Assembly: GCF_027912455.1 (NCBI RefSeq)
Contig: NZ_CP115446.1
Coordinates: 310,001-374,000 of the forward strand
DNA length: 64,000 nucleotides
Direction: 5' to 3'
Source: Aurantiacibacter sp. MUD61
Lineage (GTDB): Bacteria > Pseudomonadota > Alphaproteobacteria > Sphingomonadales > Sphingomonadaceae
Below the pieces are notes generated by a model that saw nothing but the letters and a program-made list of their open reading frames with translations, made no database searches and had not been told where the DNA came from. Both the position numbers and the translations under genes were made by a program. This document shows positions 10,501 through 28,498 of the stretch, one piece after another (within the stretch, counting starts at the first letter, position 1; every line of letters starts with the position of its first letter).

Positions 10501-13500
10501 CGCGATAATCGCATTGCCTACACTGGTGACTGTGCCGAGGCTGGTGTCGATGGAAGTGCCGGCTCCCGCACTGTAAGCGCTTATGGTTCCATTCACATCC
10601 GCCGTGACAATGCTGAGCGCACCCAGGCCCAGGTTGGACGCGTAAATACCATAGTTTGCGCCGGAAACGGTGCCGGCGCTGGTGTCAATCGCGAGTACAC
10701 CGCTGACAGCGCTGCTTGTAGCGACAATACCTGCTGAATTGGCGCTCGTTACGCTCGCAGTCGTAATCGAGAGATCTCCCGATCCCTGCTGGACCGCTTG
10801 GATGCCCTCACTGGCGGCGGCTATCTCCCCAGCCGTGCTGTCAATTGTCAGAGATGTGCCGGAGTTCTGAGCGTAAATGCCGTCATCGGTTATCGCAGTA
10901 ACGTCTCCTGCGATGATTGATGCCGAACCAGTTCCGCCGTTGAAGACTTCTATTCCGTCTACTTGAGCGGTGACTTCGCCTGCGCTGGTATCGATTGCTA
11001 CGCCGGTGCCAGATCGCAAGCGTGCAAAAACCCCATCCCCTTGAATGGCAGTGACGTTGGACGTTGTGATAGCGACTGCGCCAGCTGCCTCATGCACAAC
11101 CAAAATGCCGCGAGCGTCTCCTGTTACATCAGAGGTGAGTACGGTTGTATCGCCGTCGCCGAAATTGCCGACCTCGATTCCATCATCGCCGCCGATAACC
11201 GTTCCGGCACGGGTATCAATAAAGATGCTACCAGCCGTTGGAGCAGCTCCTGCAGCGATGCCTTCCTGACTGCCGCCAGTGACATCGCCGGTTATAATAG
11301 AGGTAGACCCCGACCCAAAATTGTTGACGACCATTCCGGTAAGACCGCCGGTTACCGCACCAGCTACGCTATCGATTGAAATGTCAGTGCCGAAATGAAT
11401 GACCGAAATACCGTGACCGTTGCTACCAGCTACCGCGCTCGTGCTAATCGAGGTTAAGCCGCTGCCCGTGTTGGCCAATTGTATTCCATCGTCACCACCA
11501 GAGATCGATCCCGCGGTCGAATTGACGAACATATCTCTTCCAGAGCCGGAAACGCTTAACCCGTCAACATTCGTCCCTGTGACGTTAGCCGTAGTGAGCA
11601 TCAGCGAACCACTGCCGGAATTGCCTGCAACTATCCCGTTTCTATCGCCGAGAACCTCACCCGCCGAAGTATTGACGATCAGGTCAGTGCCAGCCGAAGA
11701 GTTGCTCGCAAATATCCCGTCGGATGACTGCCCGGTCACGTTGCCGCTGATAATCTCGAGGACACCGTTTCCCGCATTGGAAGCGAAAATTCCACCGAAT
11801 GTTCCAACGACACTGCCCATCGACGTATTAATCGTGAGGTTGCTTGTAGACGCCCCTCTATTCTCCGCCCTTATACCTCTGCCATTGACCCCTCTCACAG
11901 CTCCGAGAGACGTAATCTCGAGTGCATCCCCGTCGAAATTGAGGGCCACAATTCCATCGTTGCCATTTCCAACAACATCGGCCGTCGTGATGCTCAAATC
12001 ACCGCTGCCATATTGGCGCGCGTCAATGCCGAAGTCGGCACCAGATACGCTCCCTGCGCTCGTGTCGACAGCAAGCGTCGTTCCATAGTTCTGTGCAAAA
12101 ATGCCTGAGGCACCCATCGCGACAACATCCGCAGTGGTTATCGAAAGAGCTCCGCTGCCGCGATTTCGCGCATCGATACCTTCGCTACCGCCTGTCACCG
12201 TGCCTGCTGTGCTGTCTATTGTAAGGCTGGTTCCACTAGTAGTCGCAAATATACCGTCAAATCTTGTACCAGTTACGTCAGCGCTGGTGATGATGAGGGA
12301 GCCAGACCCGCGATTCTGCGCATCAATCCCTTCATTTCCGCCGACAACCGTACCGGATGTTGTGTCGATGGCGATGCTGCCAGCACCATCGGTCAAGGCA
12401 AGGATACCGTCGCCCGTCCCGGTGACATCTCCAGTCACATCGCCAAGCGGCGTGACTGTCCCGATTGCGATATCACCGCCAGCACCACCGCGTGCATCCG
12501 CCAGGATACCTGCAGCACCTGTACCGGTAACTCCGCCAACCAGGCCAACCCCTTGGATCGAGATATCACCGCCATCACTGTCGGCCAGAATGCCGTTGCC
12601 GCCTGTACCGGTGATTGTCCCAATACCAGCGACTGTAATCGCGCCGCCAGCCGAACCCAAATCAAGCCCATCGCCAGCATTGCCGGTTACGCTGTCGAGA
12701 TTTTGGACTGTGAGCTCAGCTCCCGCGGAGCGCGAGTAGATGCCGTCTGTCGCTCCGACGATATCGCCAGAAGAGCCCTGAATCAGGATATCGGCGCTGG
12801 CTTGTGTACTGGTCGCAACAATGCCGAAGCCTGCCAACCCGGTGACATCATTCACTGTAATCGAAACCTGGCCGCTGCCGTACTGCAGCGCTTGAATGCC
12901 GTCCCCGCCACCAGACACGGCGCCTGCGCTACTGTCTATCGAAAGCCCAGTGCCGTCATTGCGCGCGTAGATGCCGTCATCCGTCGCCGCCGACACATCC
13001 GCTGTAGTGATCGATACTGCGCCACTGCTATAATTAAACACTTCGACGCCATCGACTTCGGCTTCGACGACGCCCGCGCTAGTATCGACGGCTACGCCGG
13101 TGCCAGACCTCAGGCGCGCAAAAACGCCGTCTCCACGGACCGCGTTGACGTTGGACGTCGTAATTGCGACGGCACCCGCTGCATCGTGTAAAACCAAAAT
13201 ACCGCGAGAAACGCCCGAGACATCGGCGGCCAGTACAGTGGTATCGCCATCGCCGTAGTTGCCGACCTGAATACCATTATTCCCGCCATTCACGCTGCCT
13301 GCGCGAGAATCGATTAGAACGTTGCCTGTGCCTAGGAATGTCGAGACAAATACACCATTCGATCTGACGCCAGTAACATCACCGGTAATGAGCGAAAGCG
13401 ATCCGCTTCCACCGTGAAAGATGTCAATCCCTACCAATCCACCACTGACGGTCCCAGAAGTGGTGTCAATGTCGATATCGGAGCCGCGATGAAACAACGA

Positions 13501-15420
13501 GATTCCATCACCAGAGGTGCCTGTAATATCAGCCGCTTCGATTGACGTAATCCCAGTGCCTTGTTGGCTCAATTGAATACCATCATTGCCGCCAGAAATT
13601 GATCCTGCCGTCGAATTGACGAACATATCTGTTCCCGAGCCGGAAACGCTTAAACCGTCAACATTCGTCCCTTTGACGTTAGCCGTAGTGAGCATCAGCG
13701 AACCACTGCCGGAATTGCCTGCAACGATCCCGTTTCTATCGCCCAGAGCCTCACCCGCCGAAGTATTGACGATCAGGTCAGTGCCAGCCGACGAGTTACT
13801 CGCAGATATCCCGTCGTATGACTGCCCGGTCACGTTGCCGCTGATAATCTCGAGGACACCGTTTCCCGCATTGGAAGCGAAAATTCCGCCAGATGTCCCG
13901 ACGACACTACCTAACGAGGTATCAATCGTAAGATCAGTTGTAGAAGACCCCAGGTTCTGCGCCCTAATCCCTCTACCATTGAGCCCTCTAACTGTACCGG
14001 TAGATGTAATCTCCAATGCACCTGTGCCGCCATTGCGGGCGAGAATCCCGTCATTGCCATTCCCGACGACATCAGCAGTTGTTATGATCAAATCGCCATC
14101 ACCATTTTGGCGCGCGTCGATACCGTAGTTTGCGCCAGATACGCTGCCTGCGCTCGTATCGACAGTAAGCGTGGTTCCGGAGACATAGTTGTAGGCAAAA
14201 ATGCCTGAGCCGCCCGTTGCTGTAACATCCGCGGTGGTTATCGACAGCGCTCCACTGCCAAAATTGCGCGCATCCAACGCTTGGTAAGCTCCCGTGACAG
14301 TGCCACGGGTGCTATCAATTGTAAGGTTGGTCCCAAGATTTCTCGCATAAATGCCAGCGAGCATAGACCCCGCTGCATCAGCGCTGGTGATCTCAAGAGA
14401 ACCGGACCCATTATTGCGCGCAAAAATGCCTCCAGCGCCCCCAGCAACACCGCCTGCGCTGGTGTCTAAATCCAGCGTTGTGCCATCGTTTCTTGCGTAG
14501 ATGCCAGAGAAGCTGGAACTCGTTACATCGGCGCTGGTGATCGCGAGAGAGCCAGACCCGTAATTTCGGGCATCGATCCCTTCCGCGCCGCCCGAAACCG
14601 TGCCTGAACTTGAGTCGATGGCAATGCTGCCAGCACCACCGGTAACTGCAAGGATACCTTCACCAAAACCACTGACGTTACCGGTTACATCGCCGATCGG
14701 CGTGATGGTCCCGATCGCAATAACACCGCCACCGCGGGCGTTGGCCGAGATCCCGGCCGCACCAGTCCCGGTGACTCCACCAACAAGGCCAACGCCCTGA
14801 ATTGAGATATCGCCGCCGTCGCTATCGGCCAAAATACCAAAGCCGGTTGCACCAGTGATAGTACCGATATCAGCAACCGTAATCGCACCGCCGAAAGAAC
14901 GCAGATCAAGCCCGTCTCGGGAATTACCGGTGACGCTATCGAGACCTTCGACACGAATAGGACCACCAATAGCACTCAGGCGAAGTCCATCGGCCGACCC
15001 GATTACAGTCCCTGAGATGCCTTCAACAGATACCCCCAATGCACCAGCCGACGCTTGAATGCCTGAGCCCGTAAGATTGTTGATCGTCGTCGGGGTAGCC
15101 ACTTCGCCGACAACAATCGTCAGGTCATCAGCCGTAGTAGAGACGCCATCAATCTCCGCCGGCGCTGCGGCCACGCAGGTGATCGTTTCACCGTCTTCGG
15201 CGATGCCATTGCCGTTTGTATCTTCACATTCTGCCGGGATTGCTTGTGCGAAAGCCGGGCTGCTTGCCGCGAGCAAGGCGACGGGCGCCACTCCCCACCG
15301 AAGCAATGCCATCGCGTGTTTGGCAATGACCGAACCGGTGCCCGGCTTTTCCGCAACCACATGTTCGGTGATCGCGAGATCGGGCGAATAACTTGCGGCC
15401 TGACCTTGCACCTTGGTCAT
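7564..15420 (-). CDS. Giant autotransporter adhesin-like protein
   Basis: About 2,618 residues from the ATG at 15420, which has GGTGGG upstream; a TTG further upstream is less credible. The signal peptide is long: about 35 polar residues, then ALLRWGVAPVALLAASSPAFAQA. The passenger is almost wholly short beta-helix repeats built around DTSAGxVxGxxxGI and GxGxLxITTADVxG. The last 280 or so residues form an autotransporter beta-barrel ending in Phe (RLRF), which inserts in the outer membrane. A block of about 698 residues is duplicated in tandem (see findings). No protease domain is visible. Adhesion or biofilm function is inferred from the class only. IS6 sequences flank the region on both sides. 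Confidence 0.88.
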   Translation of the reverse strand: MTKVQGQAASYSPDLAITEHVVAEKPGTGSVIAKHAMALLRWGVAPVALLAASSPAFAQAIPAECEDTNGNGIAEDGETITCVAAAPAEIDGVSTTADDLTIVVGEVATPTTINNLTGSGIQASAGALGVSVEGISGTVIGSADGLRLSAIGGPIRVEGLDSVTGNSRDGLDLRSFGGAITVADIGTITGATGFGILADSDGGDISIQGVGLVGGVTGTGAAGISANARGGGVIAIGTITPIGDVTGNVSGFGEGILAVTGGAGSIAIDSSSGTVSGGAEGIDARNYGSGSLAITSADVTSSSFSGIYARNDGTTLDLDTSAGGVAGGAGGIFARNNGSGSLEITSADAAGSMLAGIYARNLGTNLTIDSTRGTVTGAYQALDARNFGSGALSITTADVTATGGSGIFAYNYVSGTTLTVDTSAGSVSGANYGIDARQNGDGDLIITTADVVGNGNDGILARNGGTGALEITSTGTVRGLNGRGIRAQNLGSSTTDLTIDTSLGSVVGTSGGIFASNAGNGVLEIISGNVTGQSYDGISASNSSAGTDLIVNTSAGEALGDRNGIVAGNSGSGSLMLTTANVKGTNVDGLSVSGSGTDMFVNSTAGSISGGNDGIQLSQQGTGITSIEAADITGTSGDGISLFHRGSDIDIDTTSGTVSGGLVGIDIFHGGSGSLSLITGDVTGVRSNGVFVSTFLGTGNVLIDSRAGSVNGGNNGIQVGNYGDGDTTVLAADVSGVSRGILVLHDAAGAVAITTSNVNAVRGDGVFARLRSGTGVAVDTSAGVVEAEVDGVEVFNYSSGAVSITTADVSAATDDGIYARNDGTGLSIDSSAGAVSGGGDGIQALQYGSGQVSITVNDVTGLAGFGIVATSTQASADILIQGSSGDIVGATDGIYSRSAGAELTVQNLDSVTGNAGDGLDLGSAGGAITVAGIGTITGTGGNGILADSDGGDISIQGVGLVGGVTGTGAAGILADARGGAGGDIAIGTVTPLGDVTGDVTGTGDGILALTDGAGSIAIDTTSGTVVGGNEGIDAQNRGSGSLIITSADVTGTRFDGIFATTSGTSLTIDSTAGTVTGGSEGIDARNRGSGALSITTADVVAMGASGIFAQNYGTTLAVDTSAGSVSGADFGIDARQYGSGDLSITTADVVGNGNDGIVALNFDGDALEITSLGAVRGVNGRGIRAENRGASTSNLTINTSMGSVVGTFGGIFASNAGNGVLEIISGNVTGQSSDGIFASNSSAGTDLIVNTSAGEVLGDRNGIVAGNSGSGSLMLTTANVTGTNVDGLSVSGSGRDMFVNSTAGSISGGDDGIQLANTGSGLTSISTSAVAGSNGHGISVIHFGTDISIDSVAGAVTGGLTGMVVNNFGSGSTSIITGDVTGGSQEGIAAGAAPTAGSIFIDTRAGTVIGGDDGIEVGNFGDGDTTVLTSDVTGDARGILVVHEAAGAVAITTSNVTAIQGDGVFARLRSGTGVAIDTSAGEVTAQVDGIEVFNGGTGSASIIAGDVTAITDDGIYAQNSGTSLTIDSTAGEIAAASEGIQAVQQGSGDLSITTASVTSANSAGIVATSSAVSGVLAIDTSAGTVSGANYGIYASNLGLGALSIVTADVNGTISAYSAGAGTSIDTSLGTVTSVGNAIIANSVGTGLLQITAGDVASSDGSGVVANSSIADIVIDSTAGTVISALSGIVATASGSNAITISTADVTNTGGMDYGIVAMSEGGDIAIDTNAGTITGGSRGIVVEQNGDGDVSIAAQDVFATQYGILTRQYGAGAQNITVAGDITATANAGIFANTSGSGLTITTEGLISGFNTGIDARNYGTGALTIIAGDVSGANNAGIFAANALLSAPTGTDLSVTTTGTVTGLSGIVAINNGAGALSITAVDVTGTANDGVFAQNSGTDLLIDTSAGEVTGFSRGIFADQNGTGTLSLFVDQVTGDIGIVTMAEAGPTSISLASSAVVTGTGGPGIASMSSGGDITIVGQSGTIIGATDGAYVRSGGGAIVIQNLDLVQGNAGDGLDLESSGGAITVSDVDAIMGIGGNGILADAAGGDITVAGNGDIMGSGSGIAVTTSGAGIITLDLAGTTYGVENGVSVATDGGAVNVTSSGTLTGGALAFEATSTTTGPISFTNSGMLAGRLAFADSDDTLTNLGIFLASGTSDFGGGTDVFTIADAGILAVSGEVDFVALEQTRNAGLIDMANGTVGDQLNLSGDFLGEGGVLALDVDLTGASDLLVVEGAATGATTIAVSDTMTRLRLGQSILLVDAGAGSDAGAFTLGVDDLDSSPFVAVTLAFDAADGDFSLSSEVEAAVFEASKLGETAQSLWYRSSDIWAQQREATRFSPEAANPLWMTLSGSVADRENTVEFTTASATQNALLDYEQDFFGLQLGYDWAGADNEGLGLGLTAGYLTSSVSFDARENEADYDVFNVGASITYRTGGFYADVLVKYDFISGNLSDTAAEGLNGSTDGSAFGARSQFGYRTSGTEFFVEPQVSIEYQATDLDTIELASSQFELDSFDGLRGQAGLRIGGQSDIGSGTRLVYYASASAVHEFQGEGQVLFVSGGDSFALTNDSIDTYARIEAGLNIIGSGPLNGFIQLDGDFSGEYSSLGGSIGIRLRF

Positions 15421-15653
15421 CCGCCCACCACGCAGAAGAGCAAACTGCTGCAAACGCGATTGGTCATGATCTACATCAATGCGCCGTGCCTGTGTTACCT
15501 GTAGTTCCGAAGCCTTTGCCCGATTGCCCAAAATTTGCCCCCATCGCTCGCCTCAATCAGGCGCGATTCAATGAATCCGCGCGAGCCAATCTCAGCGCGG
15601 TGCATTTAGAATGCTGGCAGGATTCAATTATCAATGCAATGCAATAGCTTAGA

Positions 15654-16834: not shown

Positions 16835-17674
16835 GTGCTGTCAGTCTAACTGCAACTTGTCTCTGATCGGCGCGGCAATCCCTTACCCGCTGTCAGCTTA
16901 GGCCATAACATTCTGCCACTCAGCCAGTGCGGCTGAGCGGCGGGCCTTGTAGGTTTCTCTGTCGATCAGGTGGCGTTCGAGGCTAAAGTGGTTGTGGACA
17001 TTGGCATGGACCGAGGCGAACTTCTAAAGAGACCGCATCTGCCGGAACCGCAGCATCGCCCGTTCCCGTCGTCGGAACGGAAGGTGGCTGTTCTCGACCC
17101 TGTTGTTGGCCCAGCGACCTACCTCCTGCTTCTCTTGGTTGCCAAGCTCACTCATCGCCGCCCTGTACGAGCGCAGGCCATCGGTGGTGATCTCCGCCGG
17201 CGAACCGTGACGCTTCAGCGCCTTCTTCATGAACCTGAGCGCTGCTTTCTCGTCTCTCGTCTTCGTGACGTAGCTCTCGAGAACCTCGCCCTCCTGGTCG
17301 ACTGCTCGCCACAGATAATGCATCTCGCCGTTGATCTTCACATACACCTCATCGAGGTGCCATTTCCAGTGGCGGAAGCCCTTCATCCGGCTCACTCGCT
17401 GGCGCCTGACATCAGCGGCGAACAGCGGCCCGAACCTGTTCCACCAGTGCCGCACGGTCTCGTGGCAGATGTCGATCCCACGTTCGGCCAGCAGGTCTTC
17501 CACGTTTCGCAGGCTCAGTGGAAAACGAACGTACATCATCACCACCAAGCGGATCACCTCCGGTGACGAATTGAAATAGCGGAACGGGCTGGCTGGTTTT
17601 CTAGGACGAGGCACCGCCCTGCCCTACCCCGCGCTCTTCATTCGTCAATCAGGTGCATTTGGTCTGACAAGGCC
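16835..17674 (-). mobile_element. IS6-family insertion sequence with inactivated transposase
   Basis: The element is about 840 bp, with imperfect terminal inverted repeats: GTGCTGTCAGTCTAACTG on the left and, read inwards from the right, CCTTGTCAGACCAAATGC. It contains one transposase gene with a premature stop. A second partial left end (GTGTCAGGCCAATCGCAACT) lies just outside at about 16794, pointing to nested or repeated insertion. The right end interrupts a hydratase gene at about 17674. Confidence 0.78.
16898..17614 (-). pseudogene. IS6-family DDE transposase, internal nonsense mutation
   Basis: A 239-codon frame encodes the DDE transposase with catalytic positions visible: D in HLDEVYVK, D in ITTDGLRSY and E in NNRVENSHLP. 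After residue 196 a Gln codon has become TAG (17024-17026, in MRSL-stop-KF), and the frame then stays open through the conserved end (AALAEWQNVMA) to a stop at 16898. The remnant at 7.2 kb has Gln (SLQN) at this point, which supports a CAG-to-TAG change. The truncated 196-residue product retains all catalytic residues, so loss of activity is likely but not proved. Confidence 0.85.
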
Positions 17675-18276: not shown

Positions 18277-18302
18277 AATTGGGCCGGTAGCGGACTGTCC
18301 GG
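18277..18302. repeat. 26-bp GGGCCGG repeat, copy 1
   Basis: AATTGGGCCGGTAGCGGACT and following bases recur at 25583-25608 and, more diverged, at 27442-27467. This copy lies 34 nt beyond the 3' end of rtcR. The copy at 25583 lies 8 nt beyond the 3' end of rtcA, so the pair brackets the RNA-repair locus. Part of it can fold as a hairpin. Confidence 0.6.
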
Positions 18303-18335: not shown

Positions 18336-19922
18336 CTATCTTGCGACTATGTCCCAATCCAATCCAAACTTGGCTAGGTATTTCCGCAGTCGATCAGAGT
18401 CATTGGTCGATTTGCGTTTTTCTCGAGAAGCAGCGAACAATGTGCGTCCTGCGTCAGAAAGGCTGGCTGAGCGTCGGCACACTTCAACCACATATTCCAG
18501 CTGTACCCGGTCGAAAGGGTCGATCGCCTCCACGCGATCCTTTCTGAGCAAGTCGGTCAACACGCCTATCTCTCCCTTGTCGCCCGACCAGAGCCGTGCG
18601 AGGCGACCAGTTTCGAACTCCACAGCCTCGCGGTCGATCCTGCCGGTCGGGCAAAGTGTCGCCATGCGGGTTACGCTGGCGGCGAGGTCGCGGAAATTGC
18701 CTTGCCACCGTGCAGACGGGCTCTCGGCAAAAGCGAGATAGCGGTCGCGCGCTTCCTTGTTGAATGTAACGCGCGTGCCTTCGCGTTCTGCGAAGCGTTC
18801 GAGTTCGTAGTCGAGGTTGGGTTCGATATCTTCGCGCCGCTCGGCGAGCCCGGGCAATGCGAAGGTCCAAAGATTCAAGCGTGCGAACAGGTCTTCGCGG
18901 AAATTTCCGGCGGCAACTTCATCCATGAGGTTGCGGTTGGTCCCGGCGATCAGTTGGAACTCGCTCTTGGCCTCGCTGTCCGCACCAACCGGAAGGAAGC
19001 GCCCTTCCTCGATCGCGCGCAGGATCATCGCCTGTTCGTCAAGGCCTAGCTCACCAATCTCGTCGAGGAACAGGAGGCCCTTGTCGGCACTCTTGAGCAG
19101 GCCGGGCCGGTCCTGCACCGCACCCGTGAAAGCTCCCTTCTTGTGGCCGAACAGGGCTGACATTGCGCTGTCGCCCTTCACGGTTGCGCAGTTTACCTCC
19201 ACAAATGGCCCTTCGACCTGATGGCGCAGTTTCTTGAGCTCGTAGACCTTGCGCGCGAGCTGGCTTTTGCCTGCGCCGGTCGGGCCCATCAGCAGGATCG
19301 GCGCGCGGCTGCGGACAGCGACCTGTTCGATCTCCTCGATCATGCGGTTGAAGGCCGCGTTGCGGGTTTCGATCCCGCTCTTGAGGAAGCTGGTGCTTTC
19401 CGCGCTCGCCTCGGCAAAGCGACTGGCGATGGAATCGTAGCGGGAAAGGTCGAGATCTATCGAGGCCCAAGTGCCGATCGGCTGCGGCGCTCCCTTGTGA
19501 GGCTGTGTCTGCAAGAGCTTACCGGGCAGATAGCGCGCCTCTGTAAGCAAGAAGAGGCAGATCTGCGCCACATGCGTGCCGGTGGTGATGTGTATCAGGT
19601 AATCATGGGCGTCTGGATCGAATTCGAACTCACGCGCGAAATCGAGCAGCTTTCCATAAACCTCCTCGAAGTCCCATGCGTCTTCAAAATCCATGACGTG
19701 GGGGACGACCTCGGTCTCGGGTGAGACGTCGCGGATATCCTGCATCACGAATTCTGCGAGGCGGCGGTGATAGCTGCCGTGAATCAACACAAACCGATCC
19801 ACCCGCAGGTCCTCCTGCATGCAGATGCTGACCGTGGGGCGCCACTTGTTCCAGCGTGACGGACCAAACTTTGCGGCATCGAGCGTTGAGCCGAGAAAAC
19901 CAATGACAGTGGTGGGCCTCAT
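18336..19922 (-). CDS. rtcR: RtcR, sigma54-dependent activator of RNA repair genes
   Basis: This 528-residue protein has an N-terminal CARF-type sensory domain (about 1-180, starting TTVIGFLGSTLDA), a central AAA+ domain with Walker A GPTGAGKS (about 216-223), the sigma54-contacting GAFTGA loop and Walker B LLFLDEIGEL, and a C-terminal helix-turn-helix region (SLSDAGRTLFAAS). Known RtcR proteins sense RNA damage products and open sigma54 promoters for rtcBA. It is divergent from rsr, with the sigma54 promoter and palindromes between them. Length and domain order match characterised RtcR, so the call is firm. Confidence 0.95.
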   Translation of the reverse strand: MRPTTVIGFLGSTLDAAKFGPSRWNKWRPTVSICMQEDLRVDRFVLIHGSYHRRLAEFVMQDIRDVSPETEVVPHVMDFEDAWDFEEVYGKLLDFAREFEFDPDAHDYLIHITTGTHVAQICLFLLTEARYLPGKLLQTQPHKGAPQPIGTWASIDLDLSRYDSIASRFAEASAESTSFLKSGIETRNAAFNRMIEEIEQVAVRSRAPILLMGPTGAGKSQLARKVYELKKLRHQVEGPFVEVNCATVKGDSAMSALFGHKKGAFTGAVQDRPGLLKSADKGLLFLDEIGELGLDEQAMILRAIEEGRFLPVGADSEAKSEFQLIAGTNRNLMDEVAAGNFREDLFARLNLWTFALPGLAERREDIEPNLDYELERFAEREGTRVTFNKEARDRYLAFAESPSARWQGNFRDLAASVTRMATLCPTGRIDREAVEFETGRLARLWSGDKGEIGVLTDLLRKDRVEAIDPFDRVQLEYVVEVCRRSASLSDAGRTLFAASREKRKSTNDSDRLRKYLAKFGLDWDIVAR

Positions 19923-19930
19923 GCTCTCGG

Positions 19931-19973
19931 TGATAAATTTTTATCATAAGCGATACAAGAGAATAGATTTCTC
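19931..19973. promoter_or_regulatory. Palindromes in rtcR-rsr intergenic region (candidate RtcR or autoregulatory sites)
   Basis: Two inverted repeats lie 93-135 bp upstream of the sigma54 box: TGATAAA-TT-TTTATCA at 19931-19946, eight bases before the rtcR start codon, and GAGAA-N5-TTCTC at 19959-19973. Bacterial enhancer-binding proteins usually bind palindromes 80-150 bp upstream of sigma54 promoters, so both are candidates. The first could also regulate rtcR itself. Confidence 0.45.
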
Positions 19974-20065
19974 GCAACTTCACGATGTGCTGTCGAGAAG
20001 ATCGAGCCCAAAGAATCGTATATATTTCAGTGTACTATGCGAAATTCGCAGCGCGCGACTCAAAA

Positions 20066-20082
20066 TTGGCACGCCTCATGCT
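20066..20082 (+). promoter_or_regulatory. Sigma54 promoter of rsr-Y RNA-rtcB-rlaP-rtcA
   Basis: TTGGCACGCCTCATGCT has the invariant GG (20068-20069) and GC (20080-20081) separated by exactly 10 nt and closely follows the TGGCACG-N4-TTGCW consensus. Transcription would start near 20093, about 100 nt before the rsr ATG. The position between rtcR and its expected target genes supports function. Confidence 0.85.
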
Positions 20083-20190
20083 CTATCCAAACCGTCGGGT
20101 AAGTCGAACACCCGGCGAGACGCGGGAAACGGGCGGTCGGAATGGGCCGGCCGCCCAAAGCCCGATGAAGTTTCATGATGGAGTTGGACT

Positions 20191-21750
20191 ATGGCCAACA
20201 AAACGCTTTTTTCCTCGGCGCTGGCGAATTTCCGGCCGCGCACGGACACTGTAAACCAGGCAGGCGGCAACGCCTATGCCTATGGCCCCGAAGCCCTGCT
20301 CGCGCAGCTAGCCGCAACCGGCACGTTGTCGGACGGTTTCTACGCCGATGCGCAGGACCAGCTTGCCAAGGCGCTTGAAGCAGCCTGGGCGGTGGACGCC
20401 GAATGGGTTGCCAAGTGTGCGATGTACGCTCGCCAGTCGGGCGCGATGAAGGATATGCCAGCATTGCTGACTGCAGTGCTATCGATGTCCGATCCGGACC
20501 TGATGGTCCCGGTGTTCAAGCGCGTGATCGATAATGGCCGCATGCTGCGCAACTTTGTGCAGATCATGCGTTCAGGCCAGACTGGGCGCACTTCGCTCGG
20601 CTCGCGTCCGAAGCGGCTGGTGCGCGAATGGCTGGAAAATGCCTCGCCCCGCCAGCTGATGCAGGCGGCGACGGGCAATGATCCGAGCCTGGCGGATATC
20701 GTGAAGATGGTTCACCCGGCTCCGGCTTCGGCCGAACGGCGTGCCTTCTACGGCTGGCTGATCGGCAAGCCCTACGATGTAGCGGCGCTGCCGAAGGAGA
20801 TCGCCGATTTCGAAGCATGGAAGGCGGACCGTTCGCGGCCCCTGCCCGATGTGCCCTTTGAATGGCTGACCGCCTTCGAGCTGACCGCAAAGCAGTGGGC
20901 TGTGCTGGCAGAGCGCATCGGGTGGCAGGCGTTGCGGATGAACCTCAACACGCTGTCGCGTAAGGGAGTGTTCCAGATCGACGGAGTGACCGAGATGGTT
21001 GCTGCGCGGCTGGCCGATCCCGATGCAATCGCCCGCGTGAAGCCGATGCCCTACCAGTTGATGACTGCACTGACCCAAGTCGGTGACGGCGTCCCGCTGG
21101 CGGTGCAGGCTGCGCTTGAGAGGGCTCTGGACCTGTCGCTTGCGAAGGTCCCGGTGCTGGAAGGCAATGTCGTAGTGTGTCCGGACGTGTCGGGCTCGAT
21201 GGGCTCGCCCGCGACCGGCTACCGCAAGGGCGCGACTTCGGTTGTGCGCTGCATCGACATCGCCGCGCTGGCTTCAGCCGCGATGCTGCGGAGCAATTCG
21301 CAGACCCGTGTGCTCCCGTTCGAAGTGAACGTGGTGGAGCTCAAGCTTGATCCCAAGGCTCGCGTAGCGGTGAATGCCGCAAAGCTGGCGGGGGTTGGCG
21401 GTGGCGGAACCAACGTCTCGGCCCCGCTTGCCTTGCTGAATCGCGAGAAGGCGATGGTCGATTGTGTAGTCATCGTTTCGGACAATGAGTCCTGGTTCGA
21501 TGCGCCGCGTCCGTGGTCCTATGGCGATGCTTCGGCGACGATGAAGGAGTGGAACAAGCTGAAGGCCCGTAACCCGGGTGCGAAGCTGATCTGCATCGAC
21601 ATCCAGCCTTACGGCTCGACGCAGGCGAAAGATCGCAAGGACATCATGAGTGTCGGTGGTTTCACCGACGCGGTGTTCGACGCAATGGCACGCTTCGCAA
21701 ATGGCGATGCGAAGGATTGGGTCGAGATCGTCAACGAAGTGGAGGTTTGA
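20191..21750 (+). CDS. rsr: Ro60 orthologue (TROVE plus vWA domain)
   Basis: This 519-residue protein has an N-terminal HEAT-like TROVE ring domain (about 15-320) and a C-terminal von Willebrand A domain with an intact metal-binding MIDAS: DVSGSM (about 332-337), the Thr in GGGTNVSAP and the Asp in VIVSDNES. Ro60 proteins bind misfolded RNAs in the ring and Y RNAs on its outer face. In bacteria Y RNA tethers Ro60 to exonucleases such as PNPase for RNA decay. The start is ATG with GGAG 9-10 nt upstream. It is the first gene after the sigma54 promoter and is followed within 5 nt by the Y-RNA-like array, as expected for its RNA partners. Confidence 0.95.
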   Translation: MANKTLFSSALANFRPRTDTVNQAGGNAYAYGPEALLAQLAATGTLSDGFYADAQDQLAKALEAAWAVDAEWVAKCAMYARQSGAMKDMPALLTAVLSMSDPDLMVPVFKRVIDNGRMLRNFVQIMRSGQTGRTSLGSRPKRLVREWLENASPRQLMQAATGNDPSLADIVKMVHPAPASAERRAFYGWLIGKPYDVAALPKEIADFEAWKADRSRPLPDVPFEWLTAFELTAKQWAVLAERIGWQALRMNLNTLSRKGVFQIDGVTEMVAARLADPDAIARVKPMPYQLMTALTQVGDGVPLAVQAALERALDLSLAKVPVLEGNVVVCPDVSGSMGSPATGYRKGATSVVRCIDIAALASAAMLRSNSQTRVLPFEVNVVELKLDPKARVAVNAAKLAGVGGGGTNVSAPLALLNREKAMVDCVVIVSDNESWFDAPRPWSYGDASATMKEWNKLKARNPGAKLICIDIQPYGSTQAKDRKDIMSVGGFTDAVFDAMARFANGDAKDWVEIVNEVEV

Positions 21751-21754
21751 AACA

Positions 21755-21857
21755 TCAAAGGTCGCGGCGAATGCCGGGAAGGACTACATCCTGTCACGAT
21801 GGTGGTCTCTGAAAAGGGGCGCCGGTCTTTCCCAAGCCTCGTCGCCGCGACCTTTGA
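21755..21857 (+). ncRNA. Y-RNA-like unit 1 (no tRNA-like module)
   Basis: The 103-nt unit is closed by a perfect 16-bp basal stem (21755-21770 with 21842-21857). Next come the motif shared by all five units, ATGCCGGGAAGGACTACAT (21771-21789), and an upper stem of 9 bp (GGGAAGGAC 21776-21784 with GTCTTTCCC 21825-21833). An asymmetric internal loop with AAGCCTCG on the 3' side corresponds to the Ro-binding region of Y RNAs. The 40-nt terminal loop has no T-arm or D-arm signature. It starts 5 nt after the rsr stop codon. Confidence 0.8.
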
Positions 21858-21867
21858 ATAGATTGAT

Positions 21868-22044
21868 TTTGGAAAGGGCCGGGGCAAATGCCGGTGGGAC
21901 TACATCTCCCACATGATAGGCCCGACGAGTAAAGCGCCCCATGGGAGCAATCCTGCGGGGAGATGTGGGTTCGAATCCCGCCGCTGGAGCGTTGCTTAAG
22001 GGTCGATTGTCTCACCAACACTCGTTGCCCCGACCTTTTCCAAA
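21868..22044 (+). ncRNA. Y-RNA-like unit 2 with large tRNA-like module
   Basis: The 177-nt unit has a 20-bp basal stem (21868-21887 with 22025-22044; one G-U and one C-A). The shared motif ATGCCGGTGGGACTACAT is at 21888-21905, with the upper stem GGTGGGAC/GTCTCACC. Inside is a canonical T-arm (GTGGG TTCGAAT CCCGC, 21965-21981). Around it I read a D-loop-opened permuted tRNA: D-stem halves AAGC (21932-21935) and GCTT (21994-21997), an anticodon-arm mimic CCCC...GGGG (21937-21960), a 4-nt variable loop, and an acceptor remnant of 3 bp capped by UGGA (21982-21991). The T-arm is certain; the rest is a manual folding. Confidence 0.78.
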
Positions 22045-22183
22045 TTCACGGCGAATGCCGGAAGGACTACATCGAATTGTAATCGCCAGGTCGCGGGTTC
22101 GAATCCCGCCAGGTCCACCAACTATGGGCCTGTAGCTCAGCAGGTAGAGCAGGAACGTCTTTCCAAAACCTCGTCGCCGTGAA
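22045..22183 (+). ncRNA. Y-RNA-like unit 3: circularly permuted tRNA with CCA on a Ro stem
   Basis: The 139-nt unit has a perfect 10-bp basal stem (22045-22054 with 22174-22183), the shared motif at 22055-22072 and the upper stem GGAAGGAC/GTCTTTCC. The inner part is a nearly canonical tRNA in permuted order: variable loop AGGTC, T-arm GCGGG TTCGAAT CCCGC (22093-22109), 3' acceptor strand CAGGTCC, discriminator A and CCA (22110-22120). A 5-nt linker follows, then 5' acceptor strand GGGCCTG (22126-22132), UA at the 8-9 positions, and D-arm GCTC AGCAGGTA GAGC (22135-22150). The 7-bp acceptor stem pairs with one G-U. A mini-hairpin with loop ATTGTAA (22076-22082) may be a relic anticodon arm (UGU). 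Confidence 0.85.
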
Positions 22184-22197
22184 CCTGAATACAAATC

Positions 22198-22323
22198 GCT
22201 GGCGGATGCCGGTGGGACTACATGGATAGAGCGCCTTCGAAAGAAGGAGGTCGGCGGTCCAAATCCGCCCCCGGGCAACCGGAGTAGCTCAGTAAAACGT
22301 CTCATCAATCACTCGCCGCCGGC
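22198..22323 (+). ncRNA. Y-RNA-like unit 4: D-loop-permuted tRNA capped by GNRA tetraloops
   Basis: The 126-nt unit has an 8-bp basal stem (22198-22205 with 22316-22323). The shared motif starts at 22206, and the upper stem GGTGGGAC/GTCTCATC uses G-U pairs. The inner order is D-loop 3' half with GAGC (22229-22232), anticodon-arm mimic CCTTC GAAA GAAGG (22234-22247), variable loop AGGTC, T-arm GGCGG TCCAAAT CCGCC (22253-22269), a 4-bp acceptor CCGG GCAA CCGG (22271-22282), UA, then D-stem GCTC (22287-22290). Thus the Ro stem replaces the D-loop, the anticodon loop is a GAAA tetraloop, and the acceptor end is closed by GCAA with no CCA. Confidence 0.82.
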
Positions 22324-22368
22324 ACCCTGCGCTCACGCAGCGAAGCGATAGAGCAGAATTACATCAGC

Positions 22369-22468
22369 GCTGGCGAATGCCGGTCGGGACTACATCGGTA
22401 ACCAGGCGGTTCGAACCCGCCCCTGCATGGCAACATGCGGAGAAGTCTCGCCAAAACTTGTCGCCAGC
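22369..22468 (+). ncRNA. Y-RNA-like unit 5: minimal T-arm plus GNRA-capped stem
   Basis: The 100-nt unit has an 8-bp basal stem (22369-22376 with 22461-22468), the shared motif at 22377-22395 with one extra base, and the upper stem GG(U)CGGGAC/GTCTCGCC. The inner part has a T-arm GGCGG TTCGAAC CCGCC (22405-22421) and an acceptor-like hairpin GCATG GCAA CATGC (22425-22438). No D-arm is recognisable. It ends 28 nt before the rtcB start codon, so the rtcB ribosome binding site begins just after it. Confidence 0.8.
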
Positions 22469-22496
22469 ACCTATGAAGAAGCATGAGGAGGTCGCC

Positions 22497-23723
22497 ATGA
22501 CCCAGACGACGTATGAATATCAGGACGTGGAGGGCGGGTCGCCGATCAAGATGTGGACCCGCGGCGTTCCCGTTGACGACAAGGCGCGTGAGCAGCTGAC
22601 CAAGGCGGCGAAGATGCCGTTCATCTTCAAGCATGTTGCGGCCATGCCCGACGTACATGTGGGGATCGGCGCGACCGTGGGTTCGGTAATCCCGACCAAG
22701 GGCGCCGTGATCCCGGCTGCGGTCGGCGTCGACATTGGCTGCGGCATGATGGCCGCGCGTACCTCGCTCGTGGCGAGCGACCTGCCGGACAACCTTGCCG
22801 GTATTCGCTCCGCGATAGAGGCGGCGGTGCCGCATGGCCGCGATGTCGGCCGGGGTAAGCGCGACAAGGGTTCGTGGGGCGATCCGCCTCCGGCCGTGGT
22901 CGATGCCTGGGCAAAGCTCGCCGAACGCTTCGGACAGATCGTCGCCAAGTATCCGCGGCTCAAGAACACGAACAACCTCGTGCATCTGGGGACGCTGGGA
23001 ACCGGCAACCACTTCATCGAGCTGTGCCTCGATACCGAGCAGCGGGTGTGGGTCATGCTCCACTCGGGCTCGCGCGGGGTGGGCAACGCGATCGGCACGT
23101 TCTTCATCGAGCTGGCCAAGCAAGACATGCGCAAGTGGCATATCAACCTGCCTGACCAGGACCTCGCCTATTTCCCCGAAGGGACCGACCATTTCGACGA
23201 CTATGTCGAAGCGGTCGAATGGGCGCAGGACTTCGCAGCGCTCAACCGGCGGGTGATGATGACGCATGTGCTCGACGCGGTGCGCAACCAGATCGCCAAG
23301 CCATTCGATGCCGAATGCGAAGCGGTGAACTGCCATCACAACTATGTGACGCGGGAAAACCACTTCGGCGAAAACGTGCTCGTTACCCGGAAGGGTGCGG
23401 TGCGGGCGGCGAAGGGCACGATGGGCATCATCCCCGGATCGATGGGGGCGAAGAGCTTTATCGTACGCGGGCTCGGCAATGCCGAGAGCTTCGACAGCTG
23501 CTCGCACGGTGCGGGTCGGGTCATGTCCCGGACGCAGGCGAAGAAGCTGGTGACGCTCGACGAGCATATCGCCGATACCGCTGGTGTCGAATGCCGCAAG
23601 GACGAGGGCGTGATCGATGAAACGCCCAAGGCCTACAAGCCGATCGAAGCCGTGATGGCCGCGCAGGCCGATCTGGTTGAGATCGTCCATACGCTGAAAC
23701 AGGTGGTGTGCGTGAAGGGGTAG
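22497..23723 (+). CDS. rtcB: RtcB, RNA-splicing ligase
   Basis: The 408-residue product has the same length as E. coli RtcB. Landmarks in order: VGVDIGCGMMAART with the metal-binding Cys82, LGTGNHFIEL, MLHSGSRGVGN, CEAVNCHHNYVTREN, GSMGAKSFIV, and SCSHGAGRVMSR with the guanylylated His. RtcB joins 2',3'-cyclic phosphate or 3'-phosphate ends to 5'-OH ends using GTP and Mn. The ATG at 22497 has GAGGAGG 5 nt upstream. The open frame extends upstream through Y unit 5, but that part is RNA, not protein. It lies in one operon with rlaP (43-nt gap) and rtcA. Confidence 0.96.
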   Translation: MTQTTYEYQDVEGGSPIKMWTRGVPVDDKAREQLTKAAKMPFIFKHVAAMPDVHVGIGATVGSVIPTKGAVIPAAVGVDIGCGMMAARTSLVASDLPDNLAGIRSAIEAAVPHGRDVGRGKRDKGSWGDPPPAVVDAWAKLAERFGQIVAKYPRLKNTNNLVHLGTLGTGNHFIELCLDTEQRVWVMLHSGSRGVGNAIGTFFIELAKQDMRKWHINLPDQDLAYFPEGTDHFDDYVEAVEWAQDFAALNRRVMMTHVLDAVRNQIAKPFDAECEAVNCHHNYVTRENHFGENVLVTRKGAVRAAKGTMGIIPGSMGAKSFIVRGLGNAESFDSCSHGAGRVMSRTQAKKLVTLDEHIADTAGVECRKDEGVIDETPKAYKPIEAVMAAQADLVEIVHTLKQVVCVKG

Positions 23724-23766
23724 CACCCTTCACGCCGCTACCTCCAAGAGACCAAAGATAATTTCT

Positions 23767-24561
23767 ATGCAGGATACACGAACCATCGCGCCCGATGTGC
23801 GCGCCGATATCGAAGCTCGTCTCGCCCGTGTGGCGAGCGAGGATGGCGTGCGCCTGCTGATGGCAGTGGAATCCGGTTCCCGCGCATGGGGTTTTCCTTC
23901 GCCTGACAGCGATTACGACGTGCGCTTTCTCCATATACGGCCTCGACGTGACTATCTCGCGCTCAAGCCGGTCCGCGATGTGGTCGAACGGCCCATTGTC
24001 GATGAGATCGATCTGAACGGCTGGGATCTTCGCAAGGCGCTTGGCCTCATGCTCAAGCACAACGCAGTGCTGTCGGAGTGGATCGAAAGCCCGATCCGAT
24101 ACATTGCCGATGATCCGGTGGTGGAGCAGCTTGCAGCCCTTGCAAACCGCCACTTTAATCCTCGTGGGTACGCGTTGCATTACGCGAGCCTTGGCAAGGG
24201 TACAGTGGGACGCTGGCTTGGCCCGGACGGCGAGATCGCCGTGAAGCGCTATTTCTATGCGCTGCGACCGGCGCTGTCCGTTCGTGCGCTGCGCCTCGAT
24301 CCGTCGAGGCGCCCGCCGATGAGCATGGTGCCGCTGATGCAGGCGGCTGACTTGGATCGGGTTCTGGTGGATCAGGTCGATGAACTGATCGCCCGAAAGG
24401 CGATAACCAAGGAAGCGGGAAACACCATCAGGCTGCCCGATATCGAGCGACTGGTAGTAGGTGAGCTCGAACGCGCTGGCGAAGTGCCAGAGCGCAAGGA
24501 GAACACGAACTTTGCGGAAGAGGCGGAAGCGCTCTTCATTGAATTGGTAGAGAAAGAATGA
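23767..24561 (+). CDS. rlaP: RlaP-type pol-beta nucleotidyltransferase (RNA repair associated)
   Basis: This 264-residue protein has the nucleotidyltransferase core near its N-terminus: ESGSRAWGFPSPDSDYDVRF (about 37-56), where GS and the DxD aspartates bind the metal and NTP. The rest matches the RlaP (PF10127/COG3541) group, which has been reported as neighbours of RtcB and other RNA ligases and proposed to modify or end-heal RNA. Its stop overlaps the rtcA start (ATGA), so it is coupled to rtcA. The enzymatic product, for example nucleotide addition to a tRNA-like end, is unproven. The CCA-bearing Y unit 3 in the same operon is an obvious candidate substrate. Confidence 0.85.
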   Translation: MQDTRTIAPDVRADIEARLARVASEDGVRLLMAVESGSRAWGFPSPDSDYDVRFLHIRPRRDYLALKPVRDVVERPIVDEIDLNGWDLRKALGLMLKHNAVLSEWIESPIRYIADDPVVEQLAALANRHFNPRGYALHYASLGKGTVGRWLGPDGEIAVKRYFYALRPALSVRALRLDPSRRPPMSMVPLMQAADLDRVLVDQVDELIARKAITKEAGNTIRLPDIERLVVGELERAGEVPERKENTNFAEEAEALFIELVEKE

Positions 24562-25574
24562 TCACAATTGACGGCTCTGAAGGCGAAGGCGGTGGGCAGG
24601 TCTTGCGGTATTCCGCAGCCCTGTCGCTGCTGACCGGCGAGCCATTCACCATCCAGAACATCCGCGGGGGCAGGGCCAAGCCCGGCCTGATGCGCCAGCA
24701 TGTTACCGCGCTGGAAGCGGCCTGCGCCATCGGCGGAGCGGAATGCTCCGGGCTGACTGTTGGTGCCAGCGAGCTAATCTTTCGGCCCGGCAGCGTTACG
24801 CCCGGCGAATACCATTTCGCGGTCGGCACCGCCGGTTCTACCGGGCTGGTCCTGCAGGCCGTATTGGTTCCACTGATGCTGGCCGATGCGCCGTCGCGGC
24901 TGGTGATTGAGGGCGGTACCCACGCGATGGCCGCGCCGCCTTTTGAGTTCCTCCAAAAAACGCTGCTGCCGGTCATGGAGCGGATGGGACCACAGATTTC
25001 CATCACGCTCGAGCGTCACGGCTTCTACCCGCGCGGCGGCGGGCGCATTGTCGTGGACATCGATCCAGCGCCGCTGCGCCCGATCGAATGCGTGACGCGC
25101 GGCGAGTTCAAGTCTGGCAAGGTAGAAGCACTAGTTGCCGGAATTCCGTTCGACATCGCTGACCGCGAACTGAAGGCGGCGCGCAAGGTGCTGGCCGATT
25201 GGCCCGACGAGGTCTTCGCGCCCGTGCAACTCCCGGCTGAAAATGGCCCGGGGAATGCCCTGCTCATGGTAGCCGAATTCGAACATGTTACCGAAGTCAC
25301 GTCTGGCTTCGGCAAGCTTGGCGTGCCTGCAGAACGCCTGGCAAAGACAGCGGCGAAGCGGATGGCTGGCTATCTGGCGTCGCAAGCCTTTGCCGGGCCT
25401 TACCTGCAGGACCAGCTCTTGCTGCCGTTCGCGATGGCAGGCCGTGGAGCGTTCACAACAGTCAAGCTCAGTGAGCACACCCGCACCGCAGTGAACCTGA
25501 TCGAACGATTTTCGGGAAGAGGTTTTCGCTTCTCGGAAACCACTGATGGAGCGCATCTTGCAGAGGTTTGCTGA
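24558..25574 (+). CDS. rtcA: RtcA, RNA 3'-terminal phosphate cyclase
   Basis: This 338-residue protein begins MITIDGSEGEGGGQVLRYS, the family's N-terminal signature. HGFYPRGGG follows mid-protein, and KLSEHTRTAVNLIE near the C-terminus contains the adenylylated His. The enzyme converts RNA 3'-phosphate to 2',3'-cyclic phosphate with ATP, making the end that RtcB can use. It is the last gene of the operon. A hairpin-forming repeat follows 8 nt after the stop and could end the transcript. Confidence 0.96.
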   Translation: MITIDGSEGEGGGQVLRYSAALSLLTGEPFTIQNIRGGRAKPGLMRQHVTALEAACAIGGAECSGLTVGASELIFRPGSVTPGEYHFAVGTAGSTGLVLQAVLVPLMLADAPSRLVIEGGTHAMAAPPFEFLQKTLLPVMERMGPQISITLERHGFYPRGGGRIVVDIDPAPLRPIECVTRGEFKSGKVEALVAGIPFDIADRELKAARKVLADWPDEVFAPVQLPAENGPGNALLMVAEFEHVTEVTSGFGKLGVPAERLAKTAAKRMAGYLASQAFAGPYLQDQLLLPFAMAGRGAFTTVKLSEHTRTAVNLIERFSGRGFRFSETTDGAHLAEVC

Positions 25575-25582
25575 CCGGCGCG

Positions 25583-25608
25583 AATTGGGCCGGAAGCGGA
25601 CAGTCCGC
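25583..25608. repeat. 26-bp GGGCCGG repeat, copy 2 (hairpin after rtcA)
   Basis: This is the same sequence as 18277-18302 with two changes. AAGCGGA-CAG-TCCGCTT within it forms a clean 7-bp hairpin. There is no U-tract after it, so intrinsic termination is doubtful. It may mark the end of the operon or be an interspersed repeat. Confidence 0.55.
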
Positions 25609-28407: not shown

Positions 28408-28498
28408 TGGCGGAGACGGAGGGATTCGAACCCTCGATACGGGGTTACCGTATACACACTTTCCAGGCGTGCGCCTTCGACCACTCGGCCACGTCTCC
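28408..28498 (-). tRNA. tRNA-Ser(GGA)
   Basis: A complete class II tRNA with encoded CCA. Acceptor GGAGACG pairs with CGTCTCC, the anticodon loop is CTGGAAA (anticodon GGA), there is a long variable arm, and the T-loop is TTCGAAT. Its 3' end faces the degraded mobile DNA at 27.6-28.4 kb. Confidence 0.97.

Follow-up and report, generated by a model that had tools for sequence, protein, structure and literature searches.

What five different structured RNAs are doing between the gene for a Ro60 orthologue and that for an RNA ligase is the question raised by an RNA-repair operon of Aurantiacibacter sp. MUD61, which was analysed within a 64-kb stretch of DNA (the window). The locus consists of a divergent gene for RtcR, a sigma54 site, the gene for Ro60 (Rsr), the five structured RNAs, and the genes for RtcB, RlaP and RtcA, all of which were found where a first-pass annotation had placed them. 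RtcR, a CARF-AAA+ activator of sigma54, is encoded on the minus strand (18336..19922) and scores 819.6 bits against the RtcR equivalog NF038308 (cut-off 650) and 271.7 bits against PF06956 (RtcR); the other parts of the locus lie on the plus strand. The rsr gene (20191..21750) encodes a protein with a match to vWA_Ro60 (53.5 bits, cut-off 27.7), and a profile built from seven sequences aligns with 2nvo, the Rsr of D. radiodurans, from profile position 17 to 502 (E 2.7e-24). Residues D332, S334, S336, T407 and D431, which form the vWA metal site and which we take to be a MIDAS motif, are invariant in the seven aligned sequences. A Pfam search gave no TROVE match for the protein, and its score with the NCBIfam Rsr equivalog (65.9) is far under the cut-off of 900; the full-length profile match and the vWA metal site together point to its identity as Ro60/Rsr.

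RtcB (22497..23723) matches PF01139 with 428.7 bits, which passes the Pfam cut-off and is the single match in the whole genome; none of the four NCBIfam models that matched reaches its cut-off. The start at 22497 was chosen by eye since it is preceded by GGAGG and lies behind the RNA array; an alternative, longer open reading frame given by the ORF finder begins at 22377, within the fifth RNA. The gene for RlaP, a DNA polymerase beta-type nucleotidyltransferase (23767..24561; PF10127, 243.3 bits, above the cut-off), is followed by that for the RNA 3'-phosphate cyclase RtcA (24558..25574; TIGR03399, 358.3 bits against a cut-off of 250.05, with the Pfam cut-off also passed). A 25-bp direct repeat occurs outside rtcR (18277..18301) and just outside rtcA (25583..25607), and there is one more near copy elsewhere in the genome.

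The sigma54 -24/-12 site, TTGGCACGCCTCATGC (20066..20081), has no mismatches to a pattern that was drawn up after the site had been seen. A looser pattern, TGGCAY-N5-NTGC, occurs in 85 of 87 leaders between RtcR and rsr (five loci being counted twice) versus a mean of 0.14 in shuffled leaders; a narrower initial pattern had found 70 of the 87. RtcR thus adjoins a sigma54 site in nearly all relatives examined, in agreement with the inducible design proposed in the first-pass annotation, and rpoN is present in one copy in the genome. The layout of an RtcR-regulated repair operon (divergent RtcR, sigma54 site, RtcB and RtcA) is found here, and 82 of 88 loci are complete. Downstream of the sigma54 site is a conserved leader hairpin of 10 bp with the loop AAUGGG (20131..20156), at least eight of whose ten pairs are present, as a letter pattern, in 81 of the 87 leaders, with compensatory changes among 28 distinct stems. 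An HDV-like ribozyme match that overlaps the hairpin (20055-20158) was dropped at 22.5 bits against a gathering score of 44, as were CRISPR, tmRNA and group II matches in the Rfam search that fell far under their gathering scores. No terminator-like and no sigma70-like site is listed in the interior of the RNA array.

On the evidence of one covariance model, all five structured RNAs are Y RNAs. The model, R1, was made from class C with Y3 included and the other four excluded, and in the 2.97 Mb genome it ranks the five ahead of all else, with E between 3.7e-37 and 1.2e-7 and the runner-up at 8.9e-4, when 150 of 1239 first-look candidates are scored. The Y stem is present in all five, and their modules truly differ, as had been claimed. 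Y1 (class A, 21761..21851; R1 E 3.9e-8) has a Y stem, a hairpin with a 7-nt loop (CUGUCAC, 21791-21797, anticodon GUC) and a second hairpin, without a T arm; its register, F1, has 29 occurrences, 19 of them distinct. Y2 (class B, 21878..22034; R1 E 3.1e-10) is read as a tRNA mimic whose opening lies in the D loop and which has a GGCCC/GGGUC clamp, a long capped arm on the anticodon side, a T arm, and a minimal acceptor whose loop may pair with the 5' segment. Y3 (class C, YrlA, 22045..22183) has the anticodon loop AUUGUAA (22076-22082, UGU), acceptor strands at 22110-22116 and 22126-22132, and ACCA at 22117-22120. Y4 (class D, 22196..22325; R1 E 4.6e-8) has the plan of a permuted tRNA with the opening in its D loop, its anticodon arm capped by GAAA and its acceptor by GCAA. 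Y5 (class E, 22367..22470; R1 E 1.2e-7) has a GG-containing start, a T arm and a capped acceptor-like hairpin, without a D arm. For classes A, B and E, the plan is a reading of the letters alone. Y3 scores 71.9 bits with the Rfam YrlA model (RF02553, gathering 69), Y5, Y2 and Y4 match it weakly (33.6, 31.1 and 26.1), and Y1 does not match it. Folding z-scores are -5.06, -2.00, -3.76, -2.21 and -3.10 for Y1 to Y5; in the minimum-energy folds of Y1 and Y3 alone, the anticodon hairpin (CUGUCAC in Y1) is absent. The first-pass annotation had missed the permuted order of the tRNA parts, the differing opening points and the anticodon loops.

Permuted tRNA genes, in which the 3' part lies ahead of the 5' part, occur in algae and archaea; the RNAs considered here differ from these in that a Y stem occupies the opening, and most modules are missing elements required of a working tRNA. 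Circularising the Y RNA modules surveyed led ARAGORN to call a tRNA in 94 of 336, compared with 0/336 uncircularised modules and 0/1680 that were shuffled and then circularised (5 x 336). These calls comprise 88/115 modules of class C, 3/50 of class D, 3/64 of class E, 0/65 of class B and 0/25 of class A, so that the test supports class C almost alone; 41 of the 94 lack an anticodon of three letters, and in up to 37 the letters taken as anticodon belong to the junction. In register F2, re-linearisation succeeded for 25 of the 26 modules scored, and all 25, Y3 included, then gave a complete cloverleaf that was called a tRNA, its anticodon being that of the loop, a result not obtained for classes A, B, D and E. 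Y3 becomes a complete 76-nt tRNA-Thr(UGU)-like sequence. In linear form ARAGORN calls only a tRNA-Ser (28408-28498) in the window; when run on entire loci, it reports linear tRNAs within five of the relatives' Y RNAs.

Covariation was assessed for two of the plans. Among 21 class C sequences in register F2, 95.6% of cells are paired and 18 of 39 pairs change on both sides, versus 9.3 in shuffles and at most 6 when the alignment is slid; the changed pairs include two of the three in the anticodon stem and five of the seven in the acceptor. Among 32 class D sequences, 97.9% of cells are paired and 20 of 35 pairs change on both sides, the figure for shuffles being 6.7 and that for slid alignments no higher than 6; the helices of class D, to which Y4 belongs, covary, and the class reads as a tRNA whose opening lies in the D loop. 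A class B pseudoknot between the 5' segment and the acceptor loop is suggestive only, the complementarity within the same RNA having a mean of 3.70 (minimum 3) versus 3.11 across loci (56 distinct).

The arrangement had been thought richer than any known, which the relatives do not bear out. In 85 gaps between rsr and rtcB (81 distinct) there are 336 Y RNAs of recurring classes, their 3' ends bounded in this survey by the next 5' motif, and two to five per gap is the rule. Class B occurs in 65 and class E in 59 of the 85 gaps, a T arm in 298 of the 336 modules, and RlaP in 31 of 82 complete loci (tblastn). Moreover, the linkage of Rsr, Y RNA and RtcBA and that of RlaP with RNA ligase have both been described (PMC7790460, PMC7824862).

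Many modules contain a 7-nt anticodon loop with a constant frame and a triplet that differs between species, with 20 anticodons among 55 distinct modules. In four registers, 34-36 varies more than any other of the 35 position triples, and U33 together with a purine at 37 is kept in 55 of 61 distinct modules. At least one loop in a strict register is present in 62 of the 85 gaps, and 23 have none. A free hairpin scan (94/336 modules, against 15.25 on average and at most 23 over 20 mononucleotide shuffles) was set aside in favour of the strict registers because it mixed in wrong ones. Within an operon, 0 of 19 pairs share an anticodon, which does not differ significantly from the 0.79 expected by chance (P 0.42), and 8 of 29 distinct 7-nt loops are identical to a host tRNA loop (33 tRNAs from 30 of 42 tRNA places). 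Such loops offer an explanation, concrete and open to test, for the presence of several Y RNAs, and the RNAs that carry them look built for enzymes that recognise the anticodon loop.

Neither the operon nor its regulation is new, and Y RNAs that resemble tRNAs are known as well. The linkage of Ro60, Y RNA and rtcBA that the first-pass annotation mentioned is borne out by the rsr-yrlBA-rtcBA operon of Salmonella Typhimurium, which likewise has RtcR, sigma54, Rsr, Y RNAs, RtcB and RtcA (PMC7790460). That operon has two Y RNAs (yrlB and yrlA, going by its name), whereas here there are five, of five classes, and RlaP; the conserved leader hairpin, and the tRNA-like gene in the leader of some relatives (linear, called by ARAGORN in 20 of 80 named loci), are further differences. 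Y3 resembles Salmonella YrlA (RF02553) in its Y stem sides, GAAUGC...CUAC and CUUGUCGCC, in the permuted order of T arm, acceptor and D arm, which is absent from the other four, in its position beside rsr and in passing the gathering score. It differs in having an anticodon hairpin, and Y2, Y4 and Y5 have other module plans. The Rfam consensus runs from CUAC into the T arm, whereas Y3 has a 15-nt insert that holds the anticodon hairpin, and a review gives YrlA D, T and acceptor arms only (PMC8394870); Y3 departs from such a definition, and the anticodon stem covaries in relatives. Sets of anticodon-bearing Y RNAs may be new: no description of such arms turned up in the literature searched. An RlaP located next to an RNA ligase, with a predicted role in restoring lost nucleotides, has been described (PMC7824862); in the present case the pair is combined with Ro60 and an array of Y RNAs. 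Among phages, tRNAs that escape tRNA-cutting defences likewise provide tRNA in the face of anticodon nucleases, and what varies is the anticodon loop (PMC10264068), but these belong to phages, whereas the RNAs here are bacterial permuted mimics fused to a Y stem.

We suggest, with a probability of about 0.4, that the Y RNAs, of which one or more would be complete tRNA-like structures in circular permutation and the others partial or capped, are held by Ro60 and act as decoys against tRNA-cutting enzymes whose cuts RtcB could reseal. The proposal builds on features that can be read in the DNA: the operon order, the five Y RNAs, the permuted anatomy of Y3 and class C, the covarying helices of classes C and D, and the constant-frame loops. 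Damage or a toxin would cleave tRNAs in the anticodon loop; in Salmonella, cyclic-phosphate tRNA fragments induce the RtcR-regulated operon (PMC7790460). Processing of the transcript would yield the mRNA of rsr, the Y RNAs and an mRNA for rtcB-rlaP-rtcA, Rsr would bind the Y stems, and the tRNA-shaped heads would compete with real tRNAs. Y1 and Y3, with open anticodon loops, would be cut as bait, and Y4 and Y5, with the anticodon arm capped or missing, would bind the nuclease uncut. Because the long Y stem would hold the halves of cleaved Y1 or Y3 together, the two ends would stay close and make a favourable substrate for RtcA and RtcB, and RlaP would refill lost nucleotides. We infer that the same machinery repairs tRNAs. 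A permuted design split by the Y stem would give RtcB a natural substrate, and would join Ro60, Y RNA, ligase and cyclase into one cycle.

Several counts weigh against decoys: the near restriction of the permutation result to class C, the anticodon choice within operons, the few matches to host loops, the loopless gaps and the folds of Y1 and Y3. Findings in Salmonella count in their favour: the nuclease there cuts mostly between two adenines after position 36, YrlA fragments are reported as not detected, and competitive inhibition is offered as one possibility (PMC7790460). The same authors state that the roles of Ro60 and Y RNAs in RNA repair operons lay outside their study. A fuller version, that the arrays form an inducible RNA-level shield in which Ro60-displayed permuted tRNAs, whose genuine anticodon loops change fast, bait anticodon nucleases, are kept in one piece by the Y stem once cut and are recharged by RtcA, RtcB and RlaP, capped versions block the nucleases uncut, and anticodons evolve like an immune repertoire directed at tRNA-cutting toxins, is conceivable but doubtful.

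Alternatively, and as a tentative but serious possibility, the heads could be adaptors of the RYPER type that dock Rsr onto PNPase or onto tRNA-modifying or repair enzymes, the modules picking the partners and the anticodon loops being incidental. The D. radiodurans Y RNA, which tethers Rsr to PNPase with no need of an anticodon, argues for adaptors and against decoys (PMC8394870, PMC7790460), as do, for adaptors, the modification of YrlA by DusA and TruB (PMC8394870) and the widespread T arm; left unexplained are the anticodon-stem covariation and the retention of a 7-nt loop, U33 and R37 while the triplet varies. It is improbable that the modules were captured from tRNA genes and that their anticodon arms are decaying, functionless leftovers: the capped or missing anticodon arms of several classes (D, E) and the drifting triplets would fit, but the loop retains its size, U33 and R37, and the stem covaries in the relatives aligned. 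That Y3-type RNAs are permuted precursors which RtcB joins into working replacement tRNAs after damage is very improbable, since, despite every part of a 76-nt tRNA including ACCA in Y3, NCCA (as a letter pattern) after seven letters 3' of the T arm in 28 of the 298 modules that have one and the tRNA-like gene in some rsr leaders, in most of the modules listed the acceptor is shortened, capped by a small loop and without CCA, and some loops would give UCA or AUC anticodons, which to our knowledge no normal bacterial sense-codon tRNA uses.

Beyond the class, CUUUUAA loops occur in two genomes labelled as the same phylum but another class. With RF02553, 112 of 299 genomes of the phylum match at E 0.001, four above the cut-off, and 6 of 14 control genomes match as well. 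R1 matched 113 of 398 genomes of the phylum, and only full-length strong matches were used; most among the matches listed span model positions 29-106 only and are taken to be two tandem real tRNAs that would imitate the permuted order. Two viral contigs with a distant Rsr, 147 phage records and 65 plasmid records surfaced, and four plasmid or phage regions were examined. R1 found nothing in three of these regions (L147, L148 and L210); a scan for Y stems gave none in L148 and L210, and two short Y-like hairpins in L147.

The operon, which the first-pass annotation had described as RtcR, Ro60, an RNA array, RtcB, RlaP and RtcA, is present in full at 18336-25574 on the evidence of open reading frames and family-model matches. 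RtcR is encoded on the reverse strand, while Rsr (Ro60), a non-coding array of about 0.75 kb, RtcB, RlaP and RtcA follow in this order on the forward strand. Rsr is distant from the Pfam and NCBIfam models, and a profile of the Rsr family matches solved Ro60 proteins, the top match spanning nearly the full length. The RtcB gene is the sole rtcB copy detected genome-wide, and rpoN is likewise present in a single copy. Pattern matching places a σ54 -24/-12 site on the forward strand at 20066-20081, and a looser σ54 pattern occurs in 85 of 87 leaders (the RtcR-rsr intervals). A hairpin upstream of rsr, GGGCGGUCGG-AAUGGG-CCGGCCGCCC at 20131-20156, is kept in relatives' leaders with compensatory changes (87 loci examined); an Rfam search of this hairpin gave nothing above the gathering score, only a weak HDV-like match. 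Direct repeats of 25 bp flank rtcR-rtcA at 18277-18301 and 25583-25607. One further near copy elsewhere in the genome differs at a single position of a 21-base core, and a reversed control pattern also matches the genome once. The repeats could be an insertion mark or terminator-like palindromes.

The array between rsr and rtcB contains five Y RNAs, Y1 to Y5, which share a common frame: an outer stem, AUGC, an inner stem running to GAC, UACA, a module, the inner stem resuming from GUC, and the outer stem. Rfam recognises Y3, and a covariance model trained on Y3 together with 20 relatives places the other four directly after it, ahead of all remaining sites of the genome. Across the window and its relatives, 336 Y RNAs were scored in 85 rsr-rtcB gaps (81 distinct), a lower bound as further ones are visible. 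Y1 to Y5 represent classes A to E, respectively. Class C occurs in 75 of the 85 gaps, B in 65, E in 59, D in 50 and A in 25 (72, 61, 56, 48 and 24 of the 81 distinct gaps), and the order A-B-C-D-E is found in five gaps including that of the window. Class plans were read from the module letters, and covariation was counted for class D and for class C modules of register F2, the register of Y3. Class C consists of an anticodon hairpin or shorter lead, T arm, acceptor and D arm, and the Y stem of Y3 interrupts the anticodon stem within its 5' strand. In class D the opening made by the Y stem lies in the D loop. The module starts with the D arm's 3' half, in most cases after a GG, and continues with an anticodon arm that ends in a small cap loop (4 nt in 32 of 48, 7 nt in one), variable AGGUC, the T arm, a short capped acceptor (GCAA being the commonest cap, 23/48) and the 5' half of the D arm. 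Class B reads as the class D plan to which a clamp stem has been added, with the anticodon-side arm lengthened and the acceptor reduced to a minimum. Class E comprises GG, often a capped hairpin, a T arm and a capped hairpin, without a D arm, and class A consists of hairpins alone, the first closed by a 7-nt loop that resembles an anticodon loop. By eye, two relatives' modules (Y3 of locus L110 and Y2 of L047) have a long variable arm and resemble class II tRNA-Leu in permuted form.

A module that is a tRNA with a displaced opening should read as a tRNA again once its ends are joined, and this was tested by doubling each module and applying ARAGORN. None of the 336 unmodified modules and none of 1680 doubled shuffles were called as tRNAs, compared with 94 of the 336 doubled modules. 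The test speaks nearly for class C alone, which accounts for 88 of the calls (88/115, against 3/50 for D, 3/64 for E, 0/65 for B and 0/25 for A). Since ARAGORN looks for an ordinary anticodon loop, a feature missing from class D, the test neither supports nor excludes classes D and B. A three-letter anticodon was returned in 53 of the 94 calls, and up to 37 take junction letters for the anticodon. When F2 modules were trimmed at the junction, all 25 that could be cut (of 26) returned the anticodon predicted from the loop. ARAGORN runs on whole loci called linear tRNAs within the Y RNAs of five relatives (L060, L069, L072, L080 and L084), indicating that letters of the Y stem can complete a false tRNA. 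Re-linearised Y3 is a 76-nt tRNA-Thr(UGU)-like sequence with 79% identity to the host tRNA-Thr(UGU) and 80% to tRNA-Ala(GGC), the latter being the closest of 33 host tRNAs compared.

Four registers place the anticodon loop at fixed positions after UACA. Among 61 modules that differ from one another over the first 28 letters, positions 34-36 form the most variable of 35 triples in every register, and 55 have U33 together with a purine at 37. The triplet takes 20 different forms, most commonly GUC (13). The pattern is shared by Rhizobium etli (loop UCGUUAA, with C33) and by two genomes from another class of the phylum (loop CUUUUAA). A mere leftover would be expected to drift at all seven positions. 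Working tRNAs are not known to bear a UCA or AUC anticodon. The kept frame, the changing triplet and the occurrence of UCA and AUC indicate that the loop frame is probably selected for as an anticodon loop and not for a single codon. Counting against this, Y1 and Y3 folded alone by energy favour other small hairpins at this site, and formation of the anticodon loop may depend on the tRNA fold, on modification or on protein.

The operon, its regulator, the RlaP linkage and tRNA-like Y RNAs of permuted order are already described (PMC7790460, PMC7824862, PMC8394870 and PMC11472068). The literature searched, outside which key Y RNA papers lie, reported no Y RNAs with anticodon arms, no differing opening points within one array and no changing Y RNA anticodons; these three features are provisionally regarded as new.

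In Salmonella, RtcR is activated by cyclic-phosphate 5' fragments of anticodon-cleaved tRNA, and in the same study cutting of the Y RNA YrlA was not detected and a role as competitive inhibitor was suggested (PMC7790460). Y RNAs of the type in the window would supply the bait missing from that picture. The array and genes would be transcribed as one unit and the transcript processed; Rsr would then bind the Y RNAs, which would compete for tRNA-cutting enzymes, a nuclease would bind them, and those that were cut would be resealed. Class C anatomy, conservation, covariation and operon context are the steps demonstrated, at the level of sequence comparison. A probability of roughly 0.4 is assigned to this decoy function, a figure that takes into account that the permutation test backs class C almost alone. 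Alternatively, the heads of the Y RNAs could act as adaptors that dock Rsr onto PNPase or other enzymes, a reading only slightly less probable.

The comparison covers 88 loci (the best 80 of 523 Rsr-protein relatives, seven from a family search, and the window), five of them counted twice. In this sample, which is skewed to close relatives (Rsr identity of at least 63%), the order RtcR'-Rsr-gap-RtcB-(RlaP)-RtcA is found in 82 of 88 loci; the other six each lack a gene, and most sit at a contig end. RlaP was detected in 31 of the 82 complete loci. Distribution of the operon is patchy: counting the host genome, the Rsr gene occurs in 8 of 199 genomes of the family and 22 of 396 of the order, and it is absent from all 12 other genomes of the genus among those listed. 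The operon is also plasmid-borne, and one such plasmid, with five Y RNAs, is typed as conjugative. Horizontal movement is therefore likely. Sphingobium sp. SYK-6 and Novosphingobium sp. THN1 are among the strains with the operon.

ARAGORN calls a linear tRNA-like gene between the promoter and rsr in 20 of 80 named loci (14 Pro UGG, 3 Trp CCA and 3 others), for example at L098:5907-5984 and also in L080, L083, L088, L091, L099, L100, L104, L117, L121, L125 and others; that of L085 seems degenerate by eye. In L087 a Pro tRNA-like gene closes the Y array. The R. etli plasmid pRetIE4771c (L208) carries rtcR, rsr, Y RNAs and an RtcB family gene, with rtcA not annotated in the stretch. In Myxococcus phage Mx1 (L210), Rsr (45% identical) is followed in the annotation by tRNA-Gly and a peptidyl-tRNA hydrolase gene. 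A stem scan of a viral contig (L147:4504-4701) found two short Y-like hairpins upstream of a distant Rsr (42%); the class C-based covariance model R1 does not match these hairpins. Two reverse-strand reading frames of the window were judged by eye: that at 17024-17614, adjoining the operon, resembles an IS6-type transposase, and that at 7564-15531 encodes a highly repetitive, autotransporter-adhesin-like protein of 2655 residues. A plasmid locus of Methylosinus trichosporium likewise adjoins annotated IS6 transposases.
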